DNA of 64,000 nucleotides from Trebonia kvetii (lineage in GTDB: Bacteria; Actinomycetota; Actinomycetes; Streptosporangiales; Streptosporangiaceae): the NCBI RefSeq assembly GCF_007827045.1, contig NZ_RPFW01000004.1, positions 186,001 to 250,000 of the forward strand. The letters run 5' to 3'. The notes under the pieces were generated by a model. The model did no database searches. It saw only the letters and a list, made by a program, of their open reading frames with translations, and was not told the DNA's origin. Below, one piece after another: positions 44,080 to 56,949 of this stretch. The first letter of the stretch is position 1. Every line of letters begins with the position of its first letter. The translations under genes and the position numbers were made by a program.

Positions 44080-44323
44080 GGGCCGGCCTTCAGCAGAGAA
44101 CGCCAATTCCCCGTCTTATCCGCTTTCGCGCGCTATCTGGCATTGCGCAAATTGTGCCACTAAGAAGAAATGCCCGAATAGTTGGCCGACAGGCCTTCGA
44201 ATGTCAGTGCCGACGAATACCATGATTCCATGGGGTGGCAGAAAACGATAACCCCGTCGGCTTTCCCGGCATCCAAGGGCGCGGAATGCGGCGGCACGTG
44301 CACGACGCGATCAGAGACCTCGG
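44080..44323. other. Intergenic region
   Basis: Lower-GC sequence (around 44100-44180) between the methyltransferase and the broken exporter. No gene or hairpin was recognised, only the run-on tail of the frameshifted exporter frame. Confidence 0.35.
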
Positions 44324-46073
44324 TCACTGGTAGGGCAGCGCCTGCAAAGAAAACAGCTCCGCGTAGATGCCGTCGGCGGCGATCAGTTCCTCGTGGGTGC
44401 CCGATTCCGCGAGGCGGCCGCCGCTGAGCACGTAGATACGGTCGGCGGACCGAACGGTGGAGAAGCGATGCGAGATGAGCAGTACGGAACGGCCGGCGAG
44501 CAGCTCGCGGATGCGCGCCGTTGATGAACGCAGGGCCGAGCAGCGTCTCATATCCCTCGGGCAGCGTGCCGATGTCCGCGTCGGCGCCAGAGCGCTCGGC
44601 GGCGCGAACGATCGAGGCGGTGTCCGCGTGCCGCTCGTGCCTGCCGAGTGCGATGTTGTCCCCGGCGGACAGCGCGTACCTGATGAAGTCCTGGAAGATG
44701 ATCGCCGACTTGCTCAGCAGCTCGCGGTTCTCGACCTCACGGGTGTCCTGCCCGTCCCAGCAGATCCGCCCCTCGCCCGGCAGGTAAAGCCCGGCGAGCA
44801 GCTTGGCGAGCGTAGTCTTGCCCGACCCGTTGGCGCCGACAAGCGCGACCACCTCGCCAGGCTCGATGCGCAGCGATACCTCGTGCAGCGCGACGCGCTC
44901 TGAGCCCGGATAGCGGAAGCTCACCCGCTCCGCGGTGATCAAGCCGAACCGGGGCGGCCGCGTCGTCGACGCCGTTGGATCGGCCGCCGCGGCTGGCAGG
45001 GGAGTGGCGGCAGGGCCGGCGAACGCGAGGAAGTCGTCGAGGAACATCGCCGACTCCTGCAGCATCCCCGCGCTCTGCCCGGCAAACGCGAGCCGCTGGC
45101 CCAGCATGACGAGCGCGGCTGCGCCCGCGCCCGCCGAGGACAGTGCCAGGTGACCGGAGACGGCGAGCCACAGGATGCCGATGATGGCGACCGCGATCGT
45201 CGCGGAGCTCGCCAGGTCGGCGGCCACGACGGTGCGCAGTTGCCTGGACGAGACCCGGCGCATCTCCGCGATGCGCTCGTCGTAGAGGCGGTCGTGCCTG
45301 GCGCGCAGAAAGCCGGCCAGGCCGAACGCGCGGACCTCCTTCGCCGCGTCGCGTCCGGTCAGCAGGCTGGCCAGGTAGCTGCGCTCGCGGTCGCGCGGGG
45401 TCATGATGGCGCCGAACACGTAGAAGGCGCGGCCGCGGCGGCCGCTGGCCAGCCAGCCGGGTATCAGCGCGAGCAGCGCCACGGGCACGAGTTCGGGCGC
45501 CACCGCGAGCAGCGCGACGGCCGCACCGATCGCGCCGGCCAGCGAGCGCCCGAGCCCTTGCAGGCCGAAGACCAGCTGCGGCACGCGCATCACGCCCATC
45601 TGGGCCCGCGCCGCGTGGTCGTGGAACTCCGGCTGATCGAATGCGGCAAGGTCGACAGCGCAGGTCACGTCGAGGATCTTGTCCTGCGCGTACCGCGAGG
45701 TCAGCTCGGTCAGCAGTCGCTGCTGCTCCCGCAGCACCGCCCCTGCCGCCCCCAGCCCGGCCGTGATGACGCCGAGAACGGCGGCGCTCGGCCACACCCC
45801 GGCCAGGCCGGCGGTCGTGTGCTGCGCCGTCAGCACCGACTCGAGCAGCCGCCTGCCCACCACCACCTCGGCCGCGACCCCGATGCCCGACAGCACCTCG
45901 AGCAGGGCGATCACGATCAGCTCGCGCCGTCCCGCGCGCCAGGTGATGGCCAGCCCCGCCGCCACCAGCCGCGGAATGTCCCTGGCAGAGCGGCCACCGC
46001 CCATGGCGTTGATCTCGAAGATCGTCGGCCCGGCGCGCTTACCTCCCGGACTCGGCCCGGAGGGGACGTACAT
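44324..46073 (-). pseudogene. ABC exporter with deleted signature/Walker B (frameshifted)
   Basis: From ATG 46073 (or 46004) a normal type I exporter domain is encoded, then an NBD with Walker A LVGANGSGKTTLAKLL and Q-loop IIFQDF, as far as LPEGYETLLGPAF. The next expected about 45 residues (signature LSGG, Walker B, D-loop) are missing. The D-loop/H-switch part continues in another frame from about 44525 (ARIRELLAGRSVLLISHRFS) to the natural end AELFSLQALPYQ at 44324. The deletion is out of frame, so the 46073 frame runs to 44160 with nonsense. The product cannot hydrolyse ATP. Confidence 0.85.
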
Positions 46074-46153: not shown

Positions 46154-48148
46154 CTATTCCCTGTCGGTGATCAGCAGGCCGTCGTAGGCGAGGTCGTTGC
46201 GGCGGTCGACCGTGCTGCGGTCCTGGCCGTGGACTACGCGCAGCGGCGTGCCGACCCAGCGCAGCCGGGCGTCGTCGGCCGGCCCGGGGGACCCGGACGG
46301 CAGCCAGGTGCCGTAGCGGACCATGCCGTCGGCCAGATGCTGCGCCGTTGCCTGCGCAAGCACCGGAACGTCCGCGATTTCCGCCGCCAGCGGCTCGGCA
46401 GCCGCGCCCTCGACGGCGGCGTCGTCAACTTCGCCCGCGAGAACCGTGTCGCCGGCGAAGACGGCGCGGCGGAACCCTCGCAGCAGGCGTGGCACGTCGT
46501 CGGCCGCGATCCGATCGGTGCCCGCTGCCAAGAGCCAGCCGAGCGCCTCGGCGCCGAGACCGTCGAGCAGCGTGCCGGCCGCCTCGAATGGCACCTGGAG
46601 GACCGGCACCACCAGGAAGAACGACTGCCAGGCGGCTAGCCGCGCCGCCGACTGTGCATCGGTTGCCTGATCGTCGGCTGCCTGATCGGCGACGGCCGAA
46701 TTTTCCCCGGAGATAAGGTCCATGAGCGCGGCCAGGTTGGCCTCGAACACTTCCGCCCGCGCCACGATGAGCGCCTTGTGCAGTTCGATGGCGGCGATGA
46801 ACGCCTCGGTGCGCGCGTTCACGTACTCCTCGTCGGCCCACGGCGCCGACGTCTCCCGCCATTCGATGAGCGCGGGGTCTTCCGTCTCGTTCTGCGACGG
46901 CCCTACCGGCACGTGGTCGCCCCACCGTTGCCTGGCCGCGTCGACCGCCTCGGCGTGCGGCTCCATCTCAGCGGCAAGCCGGGCGACCTCGGCGATCTTC
47001 TCTTCGGCGTCGGCATGCGCCGCCGTCACGCTTGCGTGCAGTGCCTCCGCGTCGCGCAGCGCCGCCTTCCACCGCTGCTCCGCCGCCTCGCACGCGGTGC
47101 GCAGCTCGCGGCGGCCCAGCGACCAGCTGCGCCAGTTCCTGCCGCGGCGCACCCCGCCGGCCACTGCGACCGACAGCGCACCGCGCGACCGCAGCGCCTC
47201 CACCCCTTGCGGTGTCACGGTCGTCATGGCCGGCCGGCTCAGGTCATGGGCACCGAGCGCGGCGAGCGTGGTCCGGTACTCCTCCTCCGCCGCGGCCGCC
47301 CGTTCCCTGGCCGCGGGCTCACGCTTCTCCAGGTCCGCGACGCCGGCCTGCGCGGACTCGACGCGACAGGATGCCTCCTCGCAGGCCTGCTCGAGTTGAG
47401 AGAGGCGGGTGAGTGCGGTTGCGACCGCCATCCGTTCTGTGGCTAGCCTCTCGGCCTTTCCCATCGTGGAGCGGAACCACTCCACGCAGGCCGGCCAGTA
47501 GATCGTGGTGCCCTTCAGCCGCCGCAGCGCGGCGGCCATGGACTCGCCCGCGGGGAACAGCACGTCGGTGCCCCGCATCGTGCCGTGCCACCAGCGCTCG
47601 GCGAAGCCCCGGTTGGCGGGCTGGTCGGCGAGCCGGGCGGCGAGCATCGCCCACGCGCCGACCCCGTCCGACAGCCGCGCCGTGGACGCGAAGTAGTCGA
47701 CCCGCGCGGCACGGTCGCGCCAGCGCGCACCGAGCGGCGGCAGGCCGGGAGACTGGCGCAGCACCCCGGTGGCGCGCTCCGGTGACGCGAGCACGATCTC
47801 GGAGCCCACCAATTCTGGTACGGGCGCGACGACGATGTGCGAGCCCCAGGCCAGCGGCTCGCCGAACGCCGCCCCCGGGTCCGGCAATTCGGCGATGCGC
47901 CGCGCCCGTTCGGTGACGATCGCGGCGACCAGGTCGCCGTACACCTCGGACACCCCGGTTCCCGGCGGTGCGTGCACCGCGAACAGCCCGCCGTCACCAA
48001 GCTCCGCGATGGCCTCGTTCACCGCGAACTGCTCGCTGCGCACCAGCACGCCATCCGACGGCCACCGCCCGGCCGGCGTGCGCCCCGGCGCGCACCCGTC
48101 ACGCACTACAAGCGGCTCAAGCCGAACGTCGATTCTTTCACCATCCAT
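46154..48148 (-). CDS. SF1-helicase-like protein with degenerate ATPase motifs and coiled coil
   Basis: About 664 residues from ATG 48148 (MDGERIDVRLEP). The opening PAGRWPS...SEQFAVNEAIAEL and GGLFAVHAPPGTG match the core start of large actinomycete AAA_11/AAA_12 helicases, but Walker A reads PPGTGVS instead of PPGTGKT. A long Ala/Glu/Arg-rich coiled-coil insert (about 245-420) follows. The region GLGAEALGWLLAAGTDR corresponds to the Walker B GWLLIDEAGQA, with DEAGQ replaced. The end (RYGTWLP, WVGTPLRVVHGQD, NDLAYDGLL) matches the middle of the helicase core, so the C-terminal RecA domain and the usual long N-terminal part are both absent. The frame is intact over 2 kb, suggesting a maintained pseudo-ATPase rather than fresh decay. 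Confidence 0.65.
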   Translation of the reverse strand: MDGERIDVRLEPLVVRDGCAPGRTPAGRWPSDGVLVRSEQFAVNEAIAELGDGGLFAVHAPPGTGVSEVYGDLVAAIVTERARRIAELPDPGAAFGEPLAWGSHIVVAPVPELVGSEIVLASPERATGVLRQSPGLPPLGARWRDRAARVDYFASTARLSDGVGAWAMLAARLADQPANRGFAERWWHGTMRGTDVLFPAGESMAAALRRLKGTTIYWPACVEWFRSTMGKAERLATERMAVATALTRLSQLEQACEEASCRVESAQAGVADLEKREPAARERAAAAEEEYRTTLAALGAHDLSRPAMTTVTPQGVEALRSRGALSVAVAGGVRRGRNWRSWSLGRRELRTACEAAEQRWKAALRDAEALHASVTAAHADAEEKIAEVARLAAEMEPHAEAVDAARQRWGDHVPVGPSQNETEDPALIEWRETSAPWADEEYVNARTEAFIAAIELHKALIVARAEVFEANLAALMDLISGENSAVADQAADDQATDAQSAARLAAWQSFFLVVPVLQVPFEAAGTLLDGLGAEALGWLLAAGTDRIAADDVPRLLRGFRRAVFAGDTVLAGEVDDAAVEGAAAEPLAAEIADVPVLAQATAQHLADGMVRYGTWLPSGSPGPADDARLRWVGTPLRVVHGQDRSTVDRRNDLAYDGLLITDRE

Positions 48149-48246
48149 CGGCACACCTGCCCCCTCGGCATCGTGACCGCGCCCCAATTGTGATCCTCTT
48201 TAATCCTGATCGTTCTGGCCCCAAGAACCTCAGGAGGAAGGGCAGG

Positions 48247-48300
48247 ATGAAGAACCTCATCGATGCCGTGATGCAAAGATTACGGTCAGTCATGCGATAA
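48247..48300 (+). CDS. Possible 17-residue amphipathic peptide
   Basis: Frame MKNLIDAVMQRLRSVMR preceded by a perfect AGGAGG at 48232-48237 (9 bp spacing). The sequence makes a cationic amphipathic helix. It lies in the divergent region upstream of the pseudo-helicase, where no larger gene competes. It could be a leader or toxin-like peptide, or chance. Confidence 0.3.
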   Translation: MKNLIDAVMQRLRSVMR

Positions 48301-48389
48301 CGCGCGAGAGTTAGCAAATCTCCTTTCCGCAACCGAATGCGCACCCCGATATCGTTTGCGCCAGATGGACGGGACGGAAGAAATCGGGC

Positions 48390-48520: not shown

Positions 48521-48579
48521 GAGTGAGTACCGTTAGGCCGGTTCTGGCCCGGTTCTGGCCGGCCTAACGGTACTCACTC
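48521..48579 (+). terminator. Hairpin terminator, 21 bp arms
   Basis: A perfect 21 bp inverted repeat (arm begins GAGTGAGTACCGTTAGGCCG, loop 17 nt) directly after the 42-residue frame and just beyond the stop of the leftward duplicated small gene, so it can terminate both. Confidence 0.85.
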
Positions 48580-48598
48580 AACGGAAGAGACTGGCTCG

Positions 48599-48876
48599 CC
48601 GGCTCACTGGGCTTCACGTGGACGCGGTACCGCGCAATTCGCGACAGCCGGGCGGTGGTTCGCCCGCTTGGTTCCCGCGTTCCCCGTGACGGCGAGCCGG
48701 AGCGAGTGCCCGGCCCGTCCGATGGCGGCGGCCATCTGTCCGGTCGTGATGTCGGCTTCCCGCTGCTGTGCCGCGGTGAGCGGCCGTTCCGCCTGATAGA
48801 GCAGGTACGAGATGTTCATCGTTCTTACCTCCGAAATCTAAGTTAGGGAGGTGCTGTTCCCGCGGTGTTCCCGCCG
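48599..48876. repeat. Direct repeat copy A (about 280 bp) flanking hipBA
   Basis: Nearly the same sequence recurs at about 50606-50892 in the same orientation. It covers the small gene, its leader and promoter region, with many identical stretches (for example the leader around CCTCCGAAATCTAAGTTAGG). Divergence is concentrated at the gene's 3' end. Confidence 0.85.
48604..48819 (-). CDS. Duplicated small protein A (71 residues)
   Basis: Frame MNISYLLYQAERPLTAAQQR followed by EADITTGQMAAAIGRAGHSL and a variable basic C-terminus. It is almost identical to the 68-residue protein at 50629. The Shine-Dalgarno GGAGGT is 8 bp from the ATG and can pair with an upstream ACCTCC. The N-terminal LLYQAERP motif is typical of small actinomycete proteins of unknown function. 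It lies immediately downstream of hipA and upstream of a strong hairpin. Confidence 0.7.
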   Translation of the reverse strand: MNISYLLYQAERPLTAAQQREADITTGQMAAAIGRAGHSLRLAVTGNAGTKRANHRPAVANCAVPRPREAQ

Positions 48877-48918
48877 CGAGGTGGCCGTGGCTGCCTTGGC
48901 CCGACCGCGAAGACGCAC

Positions 48919-50175
48919 TCAGGCGGTGCTCAGCGACCGGGCGATGCGGCGCTGGTCAGTCTCGTAGGCGTCGGCCATCCGAACGACCTGAGCCTTGGGC
49001 AGTCCGAGATCGGCGGCGACTCGCCGCCAGCCGGCCGTGGCCCGCTCGACGTCGGTGACGATCGCGGCAGCGTCGTGCGCCGGGAGCCGGAAGTAGCCGC
49101 TCACCGACATCGCGGTCTCGATGCTCGCGGCGTCGTCATCGATGTCGATCGCTGTGGTCAGCCGGCTTGGACTGTCCGGACTGGGATTCAGGTCGTAGGC
49201 AGGTGACAGAAGCCACCCGTCACGCTCTCGCAGGAAGGCGTGGTTGCGTAGGTGATCGTCGGTGTTCGCGGTGAGGATCGAGAAGACGATCCGCCGGAAA
49301 AGCTGACGCAGGTCACCACCGGCCCGGGGGGAGTGCCGCTCGATGATCTCACCGATCTCGAGGTAGCTGCGCCGCTCGCCGTCGCCTGCCTCCAGCATGG
49401 TGAGCGCGCTGGTGAAGCCGATCCGCTGGCCATCTCGTCGGTCGAATCGTTCCACGAGCAGCACGTGCCGCCCTGCGACAGGGAGCAACTCGGACTCGGC
49501 CACCGTTACGCCAGCCCGCCGGGCGAGCCGCAGCTGCACCTCTTCCCAGGCAGGCGCATCCCACTGGTCGCTGCCGGCCCGCGGAAATTTCGCGATCGTC
49601 AGCCGCCCGGCCGCATCGGTGATCGCCGCCTTCGGGCGCGCACCGCCCAGTGAACTGCCGGCATCGATGAGGTCCGCGATGTCCCTGTCGAAGGTGCCTT
49701 CAGACTCCAGTCGCTCCGCGGCACGCATGAGCCGGGCGACTTCAATCAGTCGCGGGACCGCATGGTGATGCCGTGAGTAGTAGCTGTCACTCCCTGACTG
49801 CCGGAACCTTATGGCCCCCTGCCGGGTGTCGTCCCGGACGCCGAGCAGGAAGTCCGCCTTGCCCAACGTTCGCGGCGTGCTGGCCGACGCCCGGGCACGC
49901 TCCCGCTCTTCGCGCCGCATGAGATTCTCTCCCCAGCGGTCTGGGGCGCTGTCGGCGAAGGCGCTGAACATCGCCCGACCAGGTGGCGTGTGGAACACCC
50001 CGGCCGCCTTCGGCAGCACCGGGTCAAGTGAGTAACCACGGGAACTGGTCAGATAGGAATCTGCATAGCGGAAAGACGCGGACTGTCCGCCGCGCCCGTG
50101 CACCCAGAGCGTTCCCGCGACGACTTCGCGCCCGTCGATCTCCACGGTGACCTCGACGGGAAGGCGCTCGGCCAT
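48919..50175 (-). CDS. hipA: HipA-family serine/threonine kinase toxin
   Basis: A 418-residue HipA protein. It has the N-terminal couple domain (VEVTVEIDGREVVAGTLWVH), the phosphate-binding GSSLGGARPKA loop, ATP-site FPRAG, catalytic NTDDHLRNHAFL and metal-binding LSPAYDLNPSP. All HipA catalytic residues appear intact, so kinase activity on a tRNA synthetase-type target is plausible. Its ATG overlaps the stop of the upstream antitoxin gene by one base (TGATG). The module lies between two direct repeats. Confidence 0.92.
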   Translation of the reverse strand: MAERLPVEVTVEIDGREVVAGTLWVHGRGGQSASFRYADSYLTSSRGYSLDPVLPKAAGVFHTPPGRAMFSAFADSAPDRWGENLMRREERERARASASTPRTLGKADFLLGVRDDTRQGAIRFRQSGSDSYYSRHHHAVPRLIEVARLMRAAERLESEGTFDRDIADLIDAGSSLGGARPKAAITDAAGRLTIAKFPRAGSDQWDAPAWEEVQLRLARRAGVTVAESELLPVAGRHVLLVERFDRRDGQRIGFTSALTMLEAGDGERRSYLEIGEIIERHSPRAGGDLRQLFRRIVFSILTANTDDHLRNHAFLRERDGWLLSPAYDLNPSPDSPSRLTTAIDIDDDAASIETAMSVSGYFRLPAHDAAAIVTDVERATAGWRRVAADLGLPKAQVVRMADAYETDQRRIARSLSTA

Positions 50176-50501
50176 CAGTCGCGCACCCGCTTGGGCAGGA
50201 TCTCATCCATGCGGAGCCGGCCGACATCGGTCTCGTACGGGTCGGCCGCCTTAACCACGGCGTCCATGATGCCGATGGTCCGCAGCACACGGAACAGGTT
50301 CTCCATGCTCACGGTGCCCTTGCCCTGTTCGATCGCACGGAGGGTGTCCCGCGAGATCCCGGACCGTTCGGCCACTTGGGCCGCAGTCAGCCGGTTCAGC
50401 TTCCGCCAGTTCGACACGTGCGTGCCGAGCACGCGCAGCGAACGCGCGACAGAGAGCGGCGTGGCGAGTTGATCCCTAGCGGCTGACACATTCTTCATCA
50501 T
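50175..50501 (-). CDS. hipB: HipB-like Xre antitoxin
   Basis: A 108-residue protein with one helix-turn-helix (NRLTAAQVAERSGISRDTLR, AIEQGKGTVSMENLFRVLRT). It represses its own operon and neutralises HipA in characterised systems. The C-terminal DPYETDVGRLRMDEILPKRV tail probably contacts HipA. It is translationally coupled to hipA. Start is ATG 50501; the next codon is also ATG. Confidence 0.9.
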   Translation of the reverse strand: MMKNVSAARDQLATPLSVARSLRVLGTHVSNWRKLNRLTAAQVAERSGISRDTLRAIEQGKGTVSMENLFRVLRTIGIMDAVVKAADPYETDVGRLRMDEILPKRVRD

Positions 50502-50578: not shown

Positions 50579-50615
50579 GTGAGCCGGTGACCCCGCCAGG
50601 TGGTCACCGGCTCAC
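50579..50615 (-). terminator. Hairpin terminator after duplicated small gene B
   Basis: A perfect 14 bp inverted repeat (GTGAGCCGGTGACC / GGTCACCGGCTCAC, loop 9 nt) just beyond the stop of the leftward small gene and upstream of hipB, which it would insulate. Confidence 0.8.
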
Positions 50616-50628
50616 TGGCTTTCTGGGC

Positions 50629-50835
50629 TTAACGCGGACGCGGCACCGCGCACGTCGCGACGACCGGTCGGCGGTGCGCCCGCTTCGTCCCCGCGAACCC
50701 CGTGACGGCGAGCCGAAGCGTGTGCCCGGCCCGTCCGATGGCGGCGGCCATCTGTCCAGTCGTGATGTCGGCTTCCCGCTGCTGTGCCGCGGTGAGCGGC
50801 CGTTCCGCCTGATAGAGCAGGTACGAGATGTTCAT
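50629..50835 (-). CDS. Duplicated small protein B (68 residues)
   Basis: Paralogue of the protein at 48604: the first 38 residues are identical (MNISYLLYQAERPLTAAQQR onward), then it diverges after AGHTLRLAVTGFAGTKRAHR. It has the same leader with the GGAGGT Shine-Dalgarno facing an ACCTCC 20 bp upstream. It is the first gene of the repeat-hipBA-repeat unit on the minus strand. Confidence 0.7.
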   Translation of the reverse strand: MNISYLLYQAERPLTAAQQREADITTGQMAAAIGRAGHTLRLAVTGFAGTKRAHRRPVVATCAVPRPR

Positions 50836-50842
50836 CGTTCTT

Positions 50843-50868
50843 ACCTCCGAAATCTAAGTTAGGGAGGT
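50843..50868 (-). promoter_or_regulatory. Possible ribosome-binding-site hairpin (also at 48827-48852)
   Basis: On the minus strand ACCTCC, a 14-nt spacer containing CTAACTTAG and GGAGGT lie just before the ATG, so the Shine-Dalgarno can base-pair with the upstream hexamer. The element is identical in both copies of the repeat. Confidence 0.35.
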
Positions 50869-51026
50869 GCTGTTCCCGCGGTGTTCCCGCCGGGCGGAGC
50901 GGCTGATGCCTTGGCGGAGCGGCGGCGGGGCGCGGGAATAAGACGTCCGGCGGGCACGGAGCGTGGGCGCGGTAGAGCAGGAAAAAGCATGTCAGGAATG
51001 TCGGTCCGCGCCGCGATAATGAATGG

Positions 51027-55623: not shown

Positions 55624-56949
55624 ATGCCAAACGAAGACGTCGAGGACGCCGAGACCACAGCGGTCAACGGCGCCGCCCCCCACGGGCACGCCGTCCAGGG
55701 ACAGATCGCGCCACGAGATGTCCGGGGATACGCGGGATCGGACTACCGGCGTCTCCTCGATGCCGCCCGCAAGTCGCTCGAGCGGACGGGCGGCGACCTG
55801 ACCCGCACCGTCACGGTGAAGACGCCCGACGACAAGGAGCGCCGGGCGATCATCGGGATCACCGGCCAGTACCGGCCAGAGGGAGTCAGCGTGCTCGCCG
55901 TGCGCCTCGCCGACCTGGATCACGCCATCCGCGAAGCCTCCGGCCACGGCCTCATCGAGCTGCTCGAACGGCTCGGCCCGGCGTTGCGGGACCGCCCGGC
56001 GGAACGGCAGCGGCTGGCCGACGGACGCGAAGCCACAACCCGTTCGGTGGAAAAGTCTTTCCTCGGCGAGCGGGACTGGTTCAAGGCGTGGCTCGCCGGG
56101 CTCGCCGCCGACGGGTCGCTGACCAAGCTGGTCAACACCGGCGACGCGGCCCAGCTGCGGCAGGCGGCGCGGGTGCTCGAATGGATCGAGCAGCGCCTCG
56201 AGCTGAAGGCGGCGCCGGCGCAGCTGGCGGAGCTCGCGGCGACGATCACCGGCGACACCAAGGCGCTCGGCCAGGGCACCGCGCTCGCCACGCTGGTGCT
56301 GCGGGCGCTCGCGTTCCGCCAGGGGGCGTCGCGCCCGCGGACCACCGAGGAGCGGCGCGACCTGTGGGACCAGTGCGGCATCGTCGTGGACGACCTGGCC
56401 AGCCGGGTCCTGGTGCTGAACCTGCCGGCCGAGGGGCGCGGCCTGGGGGAGTGGCTCACCTCGGCGAGCACGTACGGCATTCCGTTCTACATCACCCTGC
56501 ACCAGCTGGTCACCATGCCGCTCGCCATCCAGGCCGGTGTGATCGTGCACGCCTGCGAGAACCCGGCCGTGCTGCGCCGCGCCGCCGGGGACCTGGGCCC
56601 CGCCGCCCGGCCGCTGATCTGCACCGAGGGACAGCCGTCGACGGCCTTTCACCGGCTGGCGGCCGCGATCACCAGTGCGGACGGCGCGCTGCGCTACCAC
56701 GGCGACTTCGACTGGCCAGGCGTCGGCATCGCCGCGAGCATCATCGACAGGCACCACGCGACGCCCTGGCGGTTCGCCGCCCCCGACTACGAGGCGGCGA
56801 TCAAGGCCGACGCCGACCACGTGCGGCTGGCGGGAAGCGGTCGGCCGACCCCGTGGGATCCAGGGCTCGAGGAGACCATGACCGTGCACGGCCGCGCAGT
56901 GTACGAGGAAGCCGTCGCCGCGACCCTTGTCGCCGACCTCAAATCATGA
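55624..56949 (+). CDS. TIGR02679/DUF2399 protein, orphan JetD-like (Wadjet) nuclease subunit
   Basis: A 441-residue protein with the N-terminal DUF3323-like part and a C-terminal DUF2399 Toprim-type domain. The key motifs VHACENPAVLRRAA (about 308), CTEGQPSTAFHRL (about 336) and YHGDFDWPGVGIA (about 358) retain the Glu and DxD residues expected of Toprim catalysis. Homologues are the fourth gene (JetD) of type II Wadjet-like clusters, where they cut plasmid DNA held by a JetABC SMC complex. No JetA (DUF2397), JetB (DUF2398) or JetC (TIGR02680) gene is present within 8 kb upstream or downstream. ATG 55624 follows GGAGAGGAGG. Confidence 0.8.
   Translation: MPNEDVEDAETTAVNGAAPHGHAVQGQIAPRDVRGYAGSDYRRLLDAARKSLERTGGDLTRTVTVKTPDDKERRAIIGITGQYRPEGVSVLAVRLADLDHAIREASGHGLIELLERLGPALRDRPAERQRLADGREATTRSVEKSFLGERDWFKAWLAGLAADGSLTKLVNTGDAAQLRQAARVLEWIEQRLELKAAPAQLAELAATITGDTKALGQGTALATLVLRALAFRQGASRPRTTEERRDLWDQCGIVVDDLASRVLVLNLPAEGRGLGEWLTSASTYGIPFYITLHQLVTMPLAIQAGVIVHACENPAVLRRAAGDLGPAARPLICTEGQPSTAFHRLAAAITSADGALRYHGDFDWPGVGIAASIIDRHHATPWRFAAPDYEAAIKADADHVRLAGSGRPTPWDPGLEETMTVHGRAVYEEAVAATLVADLKS

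Follow-up and report, generated by a model that had tools for sequence, protein, structure and literature searches.

A UPF1-like helicase derivative in Trebonia kvetii that appears to be maintained without its motor motifs

We analysed a 64,000-nucleotide stretch of contig NZ_RPFW01000004.1 of the soil actinobacterium Trebonia kvetii (hereafter the window) and found on its minus strand a gene that is a derivative of a UPF1/IGHMBP2-type SF1 helicase. Probably it is the orthologue of a stand-alone bacterial helicase of this type whose ATPase function disappeared within the Trebonia lineage, while the gene itself was retained to encode a protein that acts by binding. The gene runs from an ATG at 48148 to a TAG at 46154 and encodes 664 amino acids with no internal stop, in agreement with the 2-kb open frame reported in a preliminary description of this DNA. 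Two codons further upstream, at 48154, a GTG preceded by GAGGGGG would serve just as well as start codon. GC content at the three codon positions is 0.77, 0.55 and 0.88. The following features were assigned:

46154..48148, minus strand: pseudohelicase ORF, 664 aa (ORF list, homology and codon models)
48017..48034, minus strand: EQFAVN, Q-motif-like, residues 39-44, mostly kept (alignments)
47948..47971, minus strand: Walker A remnant APPGTGVS, residues 60-67, with Lys replaced by Val66 (alignments)
47240..47497, minus strand: coiled-coil helix 1, residues 218-303, antiparallel, inserted in RecA1 (AlphaFold model)
46913..47176, minus strand: coiled-coil helix 2, residues 325-412 (AlphaFold model)
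46610..46885, minus strand: helical subdomain after the coil, ARTEAFIAAIELHKALI...LAAWQSFFLVVPV, limits approximate (model and codon analysis)
46511..46525, minus strand: motif II site, AGTDR instead of DEAGQ, residues 542-546 (alignments)
46220..46246, minus strand: motif IV remnant PLRVVHGQD instead of PLRVHRRCD, residues 635-643 (alignment)

Helicase descent and architecture of the window protein

Pfam and NCBIfam profile searches with the window protein alone matched no helicase family, because the diagnostic motifs are gone. The absence of profile similarity, which the preliminary description had named as grounds for abandoning a helicase origin, thus applies to the isolated protein but not to direct comparison with full-length relatives: used as tblastn queries, these detected the window gene with E values from 1e-143 (queries of the same genus, about 47-50% identity) to 1e-52 (intact helicases, 31% identity). 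The homology with full-length relatives covers the whole length of the window protein and excludes chance resemblance. The AlphaFold model is well folded (pLDDT 88.6, pTM 0.85) and in structure comparison aligned with IGHMBP2, UPF1, DNA2 and Aquarius, so that UPF1-like SF1 descent is borne out both by sequence homology and by the RecA1 fold. Foldseek with this model returned no match at E ≤ 0.001, its top rows being mostly coiled-coil; the fold was settled by VIA structural re-comparison and by a model of an intact relative (pLDDT 91.6), which folds like IGHMBP2, UPF1, SEN1 and DNA2. A phmmer match to a NUDIX hydrolase (E 0.0044) was weak and was set aside as chance.

Compared with the UPF1-like SF1B helicases (IGHMBP2, UPF1, SEN1/SETX, DNA2, Aquarius), the intact bacterial relative has a like fold (VIA-align Z about 20-23), and the RecA1 domain of the window protein is also alike (Z about 11) and keeps the same motif order. 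The window protein differs from them in lacking the N-terminal region, RecA2 and all catalytic residues, and in carrying a long coiled coil in RecA1, which is split by two antiparallel helices of ~86 residues (pLDDT 95-98 over most of them). It aligns to residues 261-879 of its 1059-aa relative G001; the N-terminal ~260 residues and RecA2 are absent, as the preliminary description had recognised for the N-terminal third and the second RecA domain. Homology stops before motif V, so that RecA2 and its motifs V and VI (Arg finger) are lacking, and no remnant of either missing part was found in any frame beside the gene, frameshifted ones included. The GKT/S of an active UPF1-like Walker A has become PPGTGV, with the Lys to Val change at the site first indicated. 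The DEAGQ of motif II is likewise lost; its replacement had been mapped one residue off, as AAGTD, the aligned box being AGTDR. The alignments show degeneration of motifs Ia, III and IV as well. UPF1-like helicases rely on regions beyond RecA1 to make up complete sites for nucleic acid and nucleotide. Because the N-terminal domain and RecA2 are absent, nucleotide hydrolysis should be impossible; as judged from its sequence, the window protein would neither hydrolyse ATP nor translocate. On the model, nucleic-acid binding through the canonical cleft is unlikely.

Motif loss in the Trebonia clade

A search of 100 related genomes gave matches in six other genomes of the genus and in three further genera of the same family, and a search across the genus found the gene in 7 of 8 genomes. 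Genome-collection contigs scanned with the window protein as query yielded no relatives; a rescan based on intact sequences aligned with full-length pseudo forms recovered 80 homologues (Actinobacteria, Proteobacteria and others). The scan patterns, PPGT or QQFAVN, do not need the lysine and hence did not select for an intact Walker A as such; they would miss sequences without both stretches. GKT or GKS together with a DE-type motif II is present in 78 of these 80 loci, and further family members beyond the 80 also keep both; the two exceptions, L024 (G001) and L048 (G003), are members of the clade described below. The length of the intact members is in most cases 1030-1150 aa or more; they match AAA_11/AAA_12 as well as, in PADLOC, MkoC. 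No conserved neighbour gene of the intact homologues was found beyond shared Amycolatopsis chromosomal neighbourhoods (12 loci unscored). Relatives of this family also occur in 576 plasmid records (511 from Klebsiella), with nothing beyond AAA, ATP-binding or helicase annotations among those shown.

The window gene forms one clade with those of four congeneric genomes, G001, G003, G005 and G007 (100% bootstrap); several of the relatives are fragmented metagenome assemblies. The Walker A lysine is gone in every clade member where it could be seen, replaced by Thr, Ala or Val or lost with the loop, and DEAGQ is gone in all four members with motif II sequenced. Motifs Ia-IV are eroded, and motifs V and VI are altered where RecA2 is retained. 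PPGTG is retained in G001, G003 and the window; the whole loop is missing in G005 and G007. Every motif is eroded in G001 (complete at 1059 aa) and G003 (cut at the contig end), both of which still encode RecA2. Erosion has gone further in the window, G007 and G005: RecA2 is absent in the first and nearly absent in the second, and the G005 contig ends early. The window copy, truncated at both ends, is the most reduced member.

Of two further members of the genus, G004 has an intact Walker A on a contig that stops short of motif II. In G006, GKT has become GET and DEAGQ has become VEAGQ, the other motifs in the sequenced parts are largely kept, and the frame stops before RecA2; its placement beside the clade is weak (45% bootstrap), and its motif loss could be independent. 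The simplest history would be a single loss of the motor at or before the base of the clade, with motifs eroding and domains disappearing afterwards. When the comparison was confined to columns with at least 90% conservation across 81 intact sequences, those belonging to motifs were lost more often than the others in G001 (Fisher p = 0.052), G003 (0.023), G007 (0.0025) and the window (0.05), each p being nominal and the four tests non-independent; the same test on intact relatives gave no motif bias.

The full-length paralogue that the preliminary description expected in the same genome was searched for, and neither it nor any second copy was found; the window gene is therefore the orthologue itself, inactivated and retained. 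The genome does encode two distant UPF1-like AAA_12 helicases above the family cut-off, and each congener apparently has a single copy of the gene. G001 and the window share the order and orientation of an nSTAND1-WD40 gene, an AMP-ligase and the pseudohelicase; in the window, an ORF resembling methyltransferases and a broken gene for an ABC transporter lie in between. This synteny identifies the Trebonia pseudo form as an orthologue that occupies its own locus, not a duplicate.

Several other elements surround the gene. The ABC-transporter gene directly downstream (44160-46073, minus strand) lacks the signature/Walker B stretch through an out-of-frame deletion, with the shift before RELLAGRSVLLISHRFSTV. 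Divergent from the pseudohelicase is a 17-codon ORF, MKNLIDAVMQRLRSVMR (48249-48302, plus strand), behind AGGAGG; a search of congeners for this region found nothing similar. A perfect 21-bp inverted repeat lies at 48521-48579, with similar sequences elsewhere in the genome. A direct repeat of ~310 bp (90% identity; 48590-48900 and about 50606-50915) flanks a hipA/hipB-like pair (48919-50501), which suggests a mobile or duplicated unit. At 55624-56949 (plus strand) lies a solo JetD-like (Wadjet II) gene with DUF3323 and DUF2399, near which no other jet genes were recognised; a second DUF2399 gene stands together with a TIGR02677 gene ~0.8 Mb away on the same contig.

Selection on the gene and competing explanations

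That this is a decaying fragment, its frame open owing to a genome of about 71% GC, is unlikely, but it has points in its favour: the two-sided truncation, the out-of-frame deletion in the adjacent ABC-transporter gene, and simulations in which the frame survived a late neutral phase, about a quarter of the divergence, in 9-26% of cases. Codon models argue against it. Most pairs approach saturation at synonymous sites, which makes ω a rough, order-of-magnitude measure; with this reservation, branch models gave 0.057 for intact members, 0.145 for the clade, 0.36 for its stem and 0.14 for the window branch (profile interval about 0.07-0.23), the last being the same as in the sisters. Fixing ω = 1 was rejected for the window branch (2ΔlnL 46.7) and for the clade branches (2ΔlnL 336), and when the window branch was modelled in two phases, the later of them neutral, the neutral phase received zero length. 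The dN/dS check proposed earlier accordingly lends no support to relaxed decay. Window-branch ω was below 1 in each of five segments of the protein (2ΔlnL 5.7 to 13.4) and lowest in the helices after the coiled coil; the subdomain at 46610..46885 is the most constrained part (ω about 0.02-0.05). A stem ω for sub-regions reached a parameter bound and was not used as evidence for positive selection. Motif loss is, moreover, common to the sisters G001 and G003, the least diverged pair, whose own pairwise ω is 0.127 (2ΔlnL 317 against ω = 1). Between the window and G001, pairwise ω is 0.060 for the pseudohelicase and 0.038 and 0.056 for neighbouring genes.

Two indicators independent of ω point the same way. 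All 11-12 indels relative to G001 and G003 preserve the frame, and when evolution to the observed divergence was simulated as neutral, no more than 3.5% of runs ended with an open frame, indels not yet counted; open frames have been maintained across ~50% protein divergence. Real decay in the family looks different: the recently broken, truly dead copy L132 (G173) is split between frames with PPGTGKT and DEAGQ intact. Neutral death of this gene thus takes the form of a broken frame with intact motifs, the opposite of the window gene, which on present evidence combines lost catalytic residues with maintenance, as a pseudohelicase should. The window-branch ω and the clade-wide loss of motifs give good support to the preliminary description's view of a helicase derivative that is maintained but non-catalytic.

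It seems less likely still that the protein acts as a dominant-negative inhibitor or decoy by pairing with an active helicase or with the partner of one. The RecA1 fold and helical surfaces kept in the model would allow such pairing, and the two distant UPF1-like helicases could offer targets. The genome has no full-length paralogue, however, and the pseudo form is an orthologue rather than a duplicate, with congeners that seem single-copy; with no helicase of the same family encoded, inhibition of one is disfavoured, and the inhibitor or decoy role suggested earlier is not supported as far as an active version of the protein itself is concerned.

More doubtful again is a role as accessory or sensor within a defence island, Wadjet being one system with which it might act. 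Next to the G005 copy are divergently oriented JetABC genes of Wadjet II, and next to the G003 copy is a convergent JetD; the intact relatives G035 and L028 also have Wadjet II genes nearby, the solo JetD-like gene is 7.5 kb off in the window, and intact forms score against MkoC of Mokosh II. Yet Wadjet II genes occur in every Trebonia genome searched, which makes proximity weak evidence, and the G001 and G007 copies, like most intact loci, have no adjoining Wadjet genes. As a Wadjet accessory gene it would show consistent linkage to the jet operon, and adjacency was found in G003 and G005 only. A nucleotide switch, binding ATP or another nucleotide through the PPGTG loop left in G001, G003 and the window but not hydrolysing it, is the least probable of these alternatives, the loop being gone outright in G005 and G007 and the lysine and motif II residues in all clade members where seen.

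Known systems and a possible binding role

Among defence proteins, Mokosh MkoC (PADLOC PDLC03924) scores best of the PADLOC models both with intact relatives (E 3e-60 and 2e-65) and with G001; the match ends near profile position 949 of 1136, and the window protein scores only 0.007. Mokosh type II requires an SF1 helicase and a PLD-like domain. Pfam found no PLD domain in the intact relatives tested, and the window protein has no C-terminal domain at all; neither was assigned to this system.

Closer precedents are helicases without a motor. The PriA pseudohelicase of Deinococcus radiodurans has no ATPase or unwinding activity but keeps DNA binding and contact with DnaB (PMC4504706). Like the window gene, it is an orthologue with lineage-specific loss of helicase motifs (PMC4504706); it differs in being a replication-restart protein with a known role, whereas the window protein is a UPF1-like SF1 derivative that has lost whole domains too. 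Utp25, a pseudohelicase of the SSU processome, retains the helicase fold while its motifs are dispensable (PMC9539457); it is, in contrast, a eukaryotic DEAD-box relative with both RecA domains.

From this anatomy and these precedents, action by binding, as scaffold or adaptor, would be the likeliest mechanism; the scaffolding proposed in the preliminary description thus survives as the best guess, though by inference. By sequence, the nucleotide-binding and hydrolysis motifs have disappeared throughout the clade, while purifying selection kept the frame and most of the RecA1-plus-coiled-coil fold, the window copy additionally shedding the N-terminal domain and RecA2. A partner may then be bound by the RecA1 head and the conserved helical subdomain, and the antiparallel coiled coil, an arm of ~86 residues and about 13 nm, may provide a spacer or second contact.

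In a full-text literature search for 'pseudohelicase' with bacteria, such proteins were rarely documented. We suggest tentatively that within one genus an orthologue of UPF1-like helicases has become a structural protein without enzymatic activity, in which a nucleotide-free RecA1 head sits on a coiled coil of ~13 nm, in steps from intact, through two changed catalytic residues and erosion of all motifs, to loss of domains, with the stages possibly still present in living species. The clade and its near relatives may thus show how a motor enzyme turns into a protein that works by binding. Since an intact outgroup, a dead control and a possible intermediate that has only the catalytic substitutions are all available, the order of loss becomes testable, and so does what a helicase serves for besides unwinding.
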